Notes under the pieces: model-generated
Seen by the model: the letters and a program-made list of their open reading frames with translations, nothing else
What the model was told of the DNA's origin: nothing
Database searches by the model: none
Part shown: positions 54,743 to 57,952 of the stretch, in pieces
Layout: every line of letters begins with the position of its first letter
Numbering within the stretch: position 1 is the first letter of the stretch
Source of the DNA: Gemmatimonadaceae bacterium
GTDB lineage: Bacteria; Gemmatimonadota; Gemmatimonadetes; Gemmatimonadales; Gemmatimonadaceae
NCBI GenBank assembly: GCA_011525845.1
Contig: WYBP01000020.1
Coordinates: 124,001 to 188,000 of the forward strand
Direction of reading: 5' to 3'
Length of the DNA: 64,000 nucleotides
Translations under genes and position numbers: made by a program

Positions 54743-56407
54743 TCAGCGCCCCGCGCGTGCCCTCCGCTGCGCGTTCACCATCTCCTCGACGTCGGCGAGC
54801 AGGCGCCGCGCGTCGTAGACGATCCCGTCCTTGATGGTCCACTTCACGCCGCCGTAGCTCTCCACCTTCCCCGTGGCGTCGTTCAGGCGGAACCAGCCGG
54901 TGCCGAGGAGCACCTTCAGGTTCTGGATCGGGTTGTCCTCGACGATCACGAGGTCCGCGAGCATCCCCGGCTCGATGACGCCGTACTCGATCGGCTTCTT
55001 CATCGGCTTGAAGATCGTCACGGCCCCATGGTAGGTGCCGGCGCGGATCGCCTCACCGGGATAGAACCCCGCCTCCTGGAGCAGCTCCAGCTCCTCGATC
55101 GTGGAGAAGCCGGGCGTGTTGTAGATGAAGCTCGCGTCCGAGCTCGCGCTCACCCGGCCGCCCATGTTCTTGTAGTCGTTCAGGAACATCATCCAGACGC
55201 GGTAGAAGTTCTTCCACGCGATCTCGTCCGCCGACGTCCAGTCGTAGAAGTACGCCCCGTGGTTGCTGCGGTCGGAGATGTAGAAGTCCCAGAGCGTCGG
55301 CAGCGTGTACTTCTCGTGCCAGGGCGCGGTGATGCGCTTCATCACGTCGCGGCCGGTCAGGTACGTGGTCATCGTGGGGTCGAGCGTCACGTCGCGGTCC
55401 AGCAGGTTCTTCAGGAACCGGTTCCACTTCTCGCTGCGCGGCGTCACGAGGCTCCACTGCCGGGCCACCTGCGAGAAGCGCGTCTGCTCGTCGCCGAGGT
55501 TGGCGTCGAGCGGCCAGGGCTGCACCTGGTTCGCGTCGTACATCGACTCGAAGATCCCGTAGAAGTGCGTGATGGCCTCCAGCCCCATCCGCGTCGCGAC
55601 CTCGCCGTTCACCTGGGCCACGCCGCTCTGCTGCAGGTGCGCGGTGGTGCCGAGGCCCAGCTTCTTCGCCTCGTCGATGTAGGCCTCCATCAGGTCCGGC
55701 CGCTCGGCGCCGAGCTTGAGCCCGTCCGCCCCGTTCTCCTTCGCCCACCGGACCCACTCGCGCGCGACCTCGGGGGTCCGCGGCGTGCCGCGCCCCCACC
55801 CCGTGCCCGGCCGCTGGTAGACGACGTACCGCGGCGCCGTGATCGCGTTGCTCGCGCTCCGTGCGCGCTCCTTCACGGAATAGTCGAAGCTCGCGAAGGG
55901 GACGCCGCGCACCGTCGTGATGCCGTGCGCGAGCCAGAGCTTGTTGAAGTAGTCGCTGTGCGGCGCCTTCTGCTGCGTCCCCTGGTGCACGTGCAGGTCG
56001 ACCAGTCCCGGCATGATGTACATGCCGTGTGCGTCGATCTCCCGCGTCGCACCCTTGGGGCGCTTCGCCGTGTCGATCGGCACCTTCGGGTACCCGACGC
56101 CGACGATCTCGGCGATGCGGTTCCCCTCGACCACGATGTCAACCGGCCCGCGCGGGGCGCTGCCATAGCCGTCGATCAGGTTCACGCCGCGGATGATGAG
56201 CCGCGCGAACGGCCCCTCCCCCTCGGCCCGCGCCGAGGCGGGCGTGGGGTCCTCCTTCCGTTCCGCTTGCAGCCGCTTGGCGACCATGGTGTCGGCCGGC
56301 GCGGGGGGCGCCGCGCGGCGCTGGGCGGCGAGGTCGGCGGCGGTCGCGAGGGACGCGCCGAGGAGCACGGAGGCGAGGAGGGCAGGACGGAGGGTCGGCA
56401 GGCGCAT
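54743..56407 (-). CDS. Exported amidohydrolase
   Basis: The 554-residue protein has a signal peptide (LASVLLGASLATAADLAAQ), the metal-entry motif HGMYIMPGLVDLHVHQGTQ (His-x-His), a lysine in DGLKLGAERPD that may be the carbamylated bridge, histidines in TTAHLQQSG and AITHFYG, and a late aspartate in SASSDASFIYN. This is the amidohydrolase (imidazolonepropionase/dipeptidase-like) fold in a secreted form. The substrate is unknown. It begins two bases after the preceding gene, so it is in the same operon. Confidence 0.85.
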   Translation of the reverse strand: MRLPTLRPALLASVLLGASLATAADLAAQRRAAPPAPADTMVAKRLQAERKEDPTPASARAEGEGPFARLIIRGVNLIDGYGSAPRGPVDIVVEGNRIAEIVGVGYPKVPIDTAKRPKGATREIDAHGMYIMPGLVDLHVHQGTQQKAPHSDYFNKLWLAHGITTVRGVPFASFDYSVKERARSASNAITAPRYVVYQRPGTGWGRGTPRTPEVAREWVRWAKENGADGLKLGAERPDLMEAYIDEAKKLGLGTTAHLQQSGVAQVNGEVATRMGLEAITHFYGIFESMYDANQVQPWPLDANLGDEQTRFSQVARQWSLVTPRSEKWNRFLKNLLDRDVTLDPTMTTYLTGRDVMKRITAPWHEKYTLPTLWDFYISDRSNHGAYFYDWTSADEIAWKNFYRVWMMFLNDYKNMGGRVSASSDASFIYNTPGFSTIEELELLQEAGFYPGEAIRAGTYHGAVTIFKPMKKPIEYGVIEPGMLADLVIVEDNPIQNLKVLLGTGWFRLNDATGKVESYGGVKWTIKDGIVYDARRLLADVEEMVNAQRRARAGR

Positions 56408-56409
56408 GG

Positions 56410-57252
56410 TCAGTCGTGAGTGAGGGGACGGAGGCGTTCCGCAGCGCCCTTACTTACGCTCTCCGACCCGCCGACCGCTAGCTCTCCGAGCGCGAGCACC
56501 GCGAGCGCGCCGTGGCAGTGGGAGACCGTCCCCACCAGCACCTCGGCGGCACGGCCGGCCGCGGCGGACGCGACGAGGGCATCGGCGGCGAGCACCTCGT
56601 CCACGCCGAACATCCCCACGCCATAGGCGCGGTGCACGCAGTGCAGGATGGCGGGGCCGTCGATCCTTCGCCCCTGGAGGCGGGAGGTCTCGACGAAGGC
56701 GCGCACCGTCGGCGGGAGGCTCCAGGCGCGCGGCCCGCGCGTGTGCGGGCAGGTGCGGGGCTCGATGCAGTTGATCGGGCACATCCAGGTGGCGAAGCTC
56801 ACGTAGTGCGTGCCGTCGTCGCCGGGGCGCTGCCAGGGCACGTCGAGCGCACCCTCGAGCGAGGAGAGCCTGATCGCGCGGCCCGGCCAGCGCGCCCGGG
56901 CGCGCGCCACCACCCAGTGCGACATCAGGTGCGGCATCAGTGGCGACGGGACGATCGCGTCGCGCGCCACCGCGCCACTCCCCCGCTCCGCCGCGCGGCC
57001 GAGGTACTCGTTGAAGAAGAGCGTCCAGTCGCGGCAGACGAACTCGACCGCCGCGCTCCCGGTGGCCACGGCGCAGTCGGGGTCGCGATCCACGACCAGC
57101 AGGCGCTCCCAGCCGATGGCGCCCGCGTCGCGGCCGCGATGCAGCTGCCGCACGTAGTAGGACCCGTAGCACCCACCGCCGACGACGATGATGTCGCCGT
57201 ACGACTGCGGCGCCGCGGGCTCAGCGCCGGAGCCGTCGGCCGCCGTCGACAC
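56410..57252 (-). CDS. Uncharacterised Rossmann-fold protein with Cys cluster
   Basis: The 280-residue protein starts with a dinucleotide-binding motif (DIIVVGGGCYGSYYVRQL at 20-37) and strand LLVVDRDPDCAV, like a TrkA-N or SDR-type Rossmann fold. A C-x3-C-x5-C group (Cys158, 162 and 168 in WMCPINCIEPRTCPH) and more Cys/His (Cys28, 60, 73, 205; SHCHG) suggest a metal or Fe-S site. I recognise no named family. It overlaps the SDR gene by 32 bases, implying linked expression. No signal peptide; probably cytoplasmic and redox-active. Confidence 0.75.
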   Translation of the reverse strand: MSTAADGSGAEPAAPQSYGDIIVVGGGCYGSYYVRQLHRGRDAGAIGWERLLVVDRDPDCAVATGSAAVEFVCRDWTLFFNEYLGRAAERGSGAVARDAIVPSPLMPHLMSHWVVARARARWPGRAIRLSSLEGALDVPWQRPGDDGTHYVSFATWMCPINCIEPRTCPHTRGPRAWSLPPTVRAFVETSRLQGRRIDGPAILHCVHRAYGVGMFGVDEVLAADALVASAAAGRAAEVLVGTVSHCHGALAVLALGELAVGGSESVSKGAAERLRPLTHD

Positions 57253-57952
57253 GGAGCGTCTCCCCCGTGATGTAGGTCGCGTCGAGCAGGAAGGCGACCG
57301 CGTCCGCCACCTCCTCCGGGGTCCCGATGCGTTCGAGCGGCGTCGCCGCGGCGAAGCGCGCGATGGCGTCCGGCGGATATCCCTCGGGCGCGAGCACGAA
57401 CCCGGGTGCGACCGCGTTGACGCGGATACCCGGGGCCAGCGCCGCGGCGAGGTGGCGGGTCATCGCGTGCACGCCGGCCTTGGCCACGCCGTGCACGGCG
57501 TACCCCGGCACCGGTTCGTCCGCCATGTGGTCGCCGACGTTCACGATCGCGCTCCCCGGTGACATCACGCGCGCCGCGGCCTGCGCGAGCAGGAAGGGGG
57601 CGCGCAGGTTGAGCGCGACGACCTCGTCGAACTGCGCGGCGGTCGTCTCCCCGACCGGCGTCCGCAGCATGCTCGCGGCCGAGTTCACGAGCGCGTCGAG
57701 CCGCCCGAAGCGGGCCACGACCTCGGCGACCAGCGCGTCCGGCGCCGCCGCCGAGAGCAGGTCGGCGCGGAACGTGGCCGCCTCCCCCCCGCGCCCCTCG
57801 ATGGCAGCGACGGTCTCCGCCGCCCCCTCCGAGGAGCCGTGATGATGCACCGCCACCCGCCAGCCGCGCTCGGCGAGCCCGAACGCGATCGCGCGCCCCA
57901 CGCGCCGGCCGGCGCCGGTCACGAGCGCGGTCCGCGTGCCCGGCACCGACAT
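57221..57952 (-). CDS. Pteridine-reductase-like short-chain dehydrogenase with His at the Tyr site
   Basis: The 243-residue SDR has the NADP motif TGAGRRVGRAIA; the RR pair is typical of pteridine reductases (PTR1/FolM). LVNSAASML matches the NNA region. The active site reads VNVGDHMADEP and YAVHGVAKAG, aligning with PTR1 in keeping the catalytic Asp (141) and Lys (158), but the usual Tyr is His154. Tyr151 lies three residues away. Likely reduces a pterin or related compound, or has changed chemistry. It overlaps the PHP gene by one base (TGATG). Confidence 0.85.
   Translation of the reverse strand: MSVPGTRTALVTGAGRRVGRAIAFGLAERGWRVAVHHHGSSEGAAETVAAIEGRGGEAATFRADLLSAAAPDALVAEVVARFGRLDALVNSAASMLRTPVGETTAAQFDEVVALNLRAPFLLAQAAARVMSPGSAIVNVGDHMADEPVPGYAVHGVAKAGVHAMTRHLAAALAPGIRVNAVAPGFVLAPEGYPPDAIARFAAATPLERIGTPEEVADAVAFLLDATYITGETLRVDGGRRLRR

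Follow-up and report, generated by a model that had tools for sequence, protein, structure and literature searches.

The window analysed here, a 64,000-nucleotide stretch of a Gemmatimonadaceae contig, contains a gene whose product belongs to a real, previously unnamed protein family that is found mainly in Gemmatimonadota. Members of the family carry four invariant cysteines. We tentatively propose, at a little short of an even chance, that these cysteines form a metal site, most likely a [4Fe-4S] cluster, beside a Rossmann nucleotide pocket, and that the protein works in redox chemistry or redox sensing linked to NAD(P)H or a similar nucleotide. The gene and its landmarks lie in the window as follows:

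56410..57252, minus strand: four-cysteine gene, predicted Rossmann-like product of 280 residues, GTG start, stop codon at 56410-56412
57163..57180, minus strand: glycine-rich loop GGGCYG, residues 25-30, including Cys28
56749..56781, minus strand: C-P-I-N-C-I-E-P-R-T-C, residues 158-168, with Cys158, Cys162 and Cys168, invariant in 92 sequences
56512..56517, minus strand: Cys246-His247, containing the fourth invariant cysteine
57221..57952, minus strand: SDR gene upstream of the four-cysteine gene, with a 32-base overlap between the two
57253..57277, minus strand: Shine-Dalgarno-like stretch GGGGGAG, inside the SDR gene, 7 nt before the GTG of the four-cysteine gene

The four-cysteine gene is a real gene, with conservation well past chance. 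One tblastn scan of genome contigs yielded 79 loci with relatives that are 39-81% identical to the window protein; the scan was seeded by exact peptide patterns of that protein and distant relatives would escape it. The frame, the spacing of the three clustered cysteines (C-x3-C-x5-C, within WMCPINCIEPRTCP) and the overlap with the SDR gene were all as described in the initial annotation: the SDR gene ends at 57221 and the four-cysteine frame starts at 57252. Selenocysteine was considered and rejected. An in-frame TGA was reported for two genomes, and the cysteine positions read Cys in both; because the open frame begins at the conserved N-terminus in each of them, the TGA apparently lies upstream of the start.

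The 79 loci are nearly all labelled Gemmatimonadota, and a match was detected in about a third of the Gemmatimonadota genomes sampled (70/200; absence of the gene is judged from draft assemblies throughout). Profile searches of Myxococcota found one copy in one MAG and none in the 281 other sampled genomes (1/282). Myxococcota matches to a DNA pattern encoding CPx[ND]CxEP were set aside: except for L110 and L114, the readable ones resemble Cys-rich repeat or secreted proteins. Eight of 396 sampled genomes matched in a further phylum, called Acidobacteria here solely from the label of locus L010; of these eight, one (L010 itself) probably comes from a stray Gemmatimonadota contig and another is a fragment. 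The relatives in this phylum and in the Myxococcota MAG are divergent. L010 has the Gemmatimonadota gene order, which suggests a stray contig, and the phylum of the genome containing L063, labelled Kuenenia, searches as Gemmatimonadota, which suggests a mislabelled bin. L150 (G549), a C-terminal fragment that lacks the cysteines and is probably decayed, was left out of the evidence. No relatives were found on viral contigs or on plasmids.

Seven cysteines seemed conserved in an alignment of 80 sequences. When divergent relatives were added (92 sequences), Cys28 was absent from L148 and L149, Cys60 from L095 and L134-L136, and Cys205 from several sequences, which leaves the other four cysteines as the natural unit. 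Wherever a sequence covers the region, Cys158, Cys162, Cys168 and Cys246 are kept without exception, across 92 relatives from three phyla with identities down to about 24-28%; the single gap at Cys246 belongs to L046, whose contig is truncated before that residue. Thus, the three cysteines on whose conservation the initial annotation had staked its reading are kept in all 92 sequences, and the equally conserved Cys246-His247, which it did not mention, completes the set. D55, W76, H108, S152, A154, E164, P165 and W177 are likewise invariant and G25-G30 nearly so. The GGGCYG loop is found in the window protein and in 90 of the 92 sequences, and D55 in all of them; the glycine-rich loop followed by an acidic residue at the end of beta2 matches the sequence pattern of NAD(P)-binding Rossmann proteins. 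L148 and L149, which are among the most divergent relatives, have the degenerate forms SGGPEG and GGPEIH in place of the loop, so perhaps not every member of the family binds a nucleotide.

The description "ferredoxin-like" does not hold for the spacing of the cysteines: [4Fe-4S] ferredoxins use CxxCxxCxxxC, whereas the family has C-x3-C-x5-C and a distant Cys246, 78 residues past Cys168, on a predicted alpha/beta Rossmann-like fold. Cysteines with an adjacent proline and probable metal ligation are common to both. The CX3CX2C motif of radical SAM enzymes is also absent, as the window protein has C-x3-C-x5-C and these positions are invariant in all relatives. Cys-Pro pairs around the cluster recall the contexts of Fe-S ligands. 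For annotators, the family offers a four-cysteine signature, CPx2CxEPx2CP ... SxCH.

We modelled two members of the family with AlphaFold2. Mean pLDDT was 89.0 for the window protein (56 sequences) and 91.7 for L134 (51 sequences), so both models are confident, and the order of elements was identical in these two independent predictions. Each has the cysteine loop among its lowest-confidence parts, as expected for a loop that is ordered by its ligand. Matches to solved Rossmann-like folds are weak and unspecific and are confined to the first ~85-100 residues. With VIA-align, Rossmann-like matches reached Z 5.2 for the window model and 7.3 for the L134 model over about 80-106 residues (about 80 for the best, Z 7.3), and they mixed XdhC, TrkA, SDR-type and methyltransferase folds, combining NAD-, SAM- and ATP-binding proteins. 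Homospermidine synthase/saccharopine dehydrogenase-like NAD-binding domains share the Rossmann start over about 95 residues (Z 3.9-4.0; 3ic5 gave Z 5.6 over 77 residues), with no sequence match above cut-off; we know of no comparable cysteine cluster in them. Foldseek gave no match at E < 0.001 for either model against the PDB or for the L134 model against the viral proteins of BFVD. The structural matches support a Rossmann-like fold and nothing more specific. In the models, the glycine-rich loop and Asp55, the latter where beta2 ends, are consistent with a nucleotide pocket of the Rossmann type. Of 17 invariant residues, 12 lie at strand ends, versus a background of 50%, a difference that is not decisive.

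Sequence searches likewise left the family without a name, as the initial annotation had held. The best Pfam model for the window protein is TrkA_N (PF02254), at E 0.19 and 12.5 bits versus a gathering cut-off of 23.8 bits; NCBIfam gave no match for it, and neither Pfam nor NCBIfam gave a family-naming match for any of 56 relatives. No chain among the PDB sequences matched the family profile at E up to 10, and the literature queries tried found nothing on the family. DUF166, considered as a possible likeness, had no match in the four genomes searched. The protein may resemble some uncharacterised deltaproteobacterial proteins.

The order of genes around the four-cysteine gene is strongly conserved in Gemmatimonadota, all on one strand: h98 - E2 - h59 - PHP - SDR - four-Cys gene - TrxR - MBL. 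At 75 loci, the GGGCYG codon follows the SDR stop by 22-121 nt on one strand, and from this short spacing we infer that co-transcription and translational coupling with the upstream SDR are probable in this phylum. Elsewhere, the four-cysteine gene lies beside genes for GlyS and proline dehydrogenase (L139, L140) or for a 2-hydroxyacid dehydrogenase and QueA (L141). In the divergent relative L148, a gene for a small DUF4760 protein (L148:1058-1480) precedes it, and in L149, also divergent, the open reading frame upstream of it (L149:1064-1481) is similar by eye. A NadA-like gene was also seen, upstream in L148 and close to the fragment L150.

Taken together, these results suggest a possible mechanism. 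The product would be a single-domain alpha/beta protein, probably soluble, in which the N-terminal unit, beta1-loop-alphaA-beta2 together with Asp55, is laid out like a nucleotide-binding fold of the Rossmann type. A loop predicted to be inserted after beta5 bears C-P-x2-C-x-E-P-x2-C-P; with Cys246, towards the sheet's end, this loop could contribute the four cysteines of a single metal site, which is the simplest reading of their invariance. The metal centre would most likely be a [4Fe-4S] cluster adjoining the nucleotide pocket, the nucleotide may be NAD(H) and the role may be in redox chemistry. Given a Rossmann pocket beside the metal site, the proposal that assumes least is a redox or sensing role linked to NAD(P)H. 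A bolder form of the proposal, which we regard as doubtful, is an enzyme family of ~250-residue single-domain proteins in which C158/C162/C168 and C246 hold a [4Fe-4S] cluster right at the Rossmann nucleotide-binding face, where it exchanges electrons with bound NAD(P)H or SAM. Either way, a conserved unnamed family in a poorly studied phylum now has a clear, testable metal-site prediction; if it is true, the family would offer a small and useful model of how a nucleotide and an Fe-S cluster are coupled in one compact protein.

How well does the predicted Fe-S site compare with other uses of the four cysteines? They could instead bind a Zn2+ ion with the structural task of ordering the loop, making the protein a non-redox Rossmann-like enzyme or regulator. 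Four invariant cysteines would suit Zn(Cys)4 just as well, the conservation pattern would be identical, and zinc sites often staple inserted loops; however, the spacing differs from the CxxC zinc knuckle, and Cys158 and Cys168 are each followed by proline, as in many Fe-S proteins. Neither point is decisive. The Cys-Pro pairs make [4Fe-4S] the likelier centre in our view, and we consider zinc unlikely, while giving it real weight. A different possibility is that the family consists of divergent XdhC- or TrkA-type Rossmann proteins, acting in cofactor maturation or ligand gating, to which a metal loop was added. The C-terminal domain of XdhC/CoxI (PF13478; PDB 2we7, 3on5), likewise a Rossmann-like unit, ranks first or third among the structural matches (Z 5.2 over 106 residues at 4.1 A; Z 6.5 over 89 residues at 3.1 A), and TrkA_N/RCK proteins, which share a GxGxxG loop and an acidic residue after beta2, are close behind (Z 4.7-5.4); TrkA_N is also the sole Pfam trace for the window protein. 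Yet values of Z < 8 are common between unrelated Rossmann folds, and those for XdhC are below the level that separates it from common Rossmann arrangements. The profile-profile comparison proposed alongside structure prediction in the initial annotation gave probabilities of 7.9% for XdhC and 17.8% for TrkA_N (hhalign), from alignments of 70 and 35 N-terminal columns, respectively, and no XdhC_C match was found among 56 members at E up to 0.1. The XdhC consensus has no counterpart of the C-x3-C-x5-C plus C246 site and the TrkA_N proteins aligned lack the cysteine cluster. We rate this descent as the least probable of the readings discussed here.

Two further readings draw on the neighbouring genes. 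The gene might encode a protein that works with the overlapping SDR in pterin metabolism, a role that the initial annotation had suggested from the overlap. In Gemmatimonadota it does lie directly downstream of the SDR gene, overlapping it or nearly so. However, the SDR still follows PHP in 13/13 genomes of the same family that lack the four-cysteine gene, no SDR neighbour was seen in the readable contexts outside Gemmatimonadota, and pairwise distances of the four-cysteine gene follow those of PHP (r 0.82) better than those of SDR (0.71), with MBL at 0.74. Because related genomes with the same order keep the SDR without it, the four-cysteine gene looks like an accessory gene carried along in a conserved order and not like a partner that the SDR requires. 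The pterin chemistry in turn was grounded solely in the name of the SDR. Its closest NCBIfam model is pteridine reductase NF006598, at 236.7 bits versus an equivalog cut-off of 288, and it keeps TGxxxRxG and the Asp of a pteridine-reductase type active site; but residues 150-158, GYAVHGVAK, place His at the catalytic Tyr position of the classical YxxxK motif. The HxxxK variant occurs in 102 of 103 syntenic SDR orthologues with data, whether the four-cysteine gene is present or absent. Literature queries tried on SDRs with His for the catalytic Tyr, and on pteridine reductase in Gemmatimonas, found nothing. We think such a partnership improbable. Scarcely more probable is that the cysteines are catalytic or redox-active thiols of a disulfide relay served by the downstream thioredoxin reductase. 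A TrxR-type flavoprotein with CxxC is found downstream in nearly all Gemmatimonadota loci, but it is also near the SDR in 10 of the 13 genomes that lack the four-cysteine gene (following it within the short stretch covered) and was not seen adjoining the gene outside Gemmatimonadota; four invariant cysteines with two Cys-Pro pairs would also be unusual for a relay.

In the window, an amidohydrolase gene (54743-56407, minus strand) lies between the four-cysteine gene and TrxR; among the 79 relatives it was found in L007 alone, so it looks like a recent insertion in the conserved order. The TrxR slot holds two types of thioredoxin reductase, about 36-41% or 61-86% identical to that of the window (L034, L063 and about 35 other loci), and CxxC is kept in nearly all of them.
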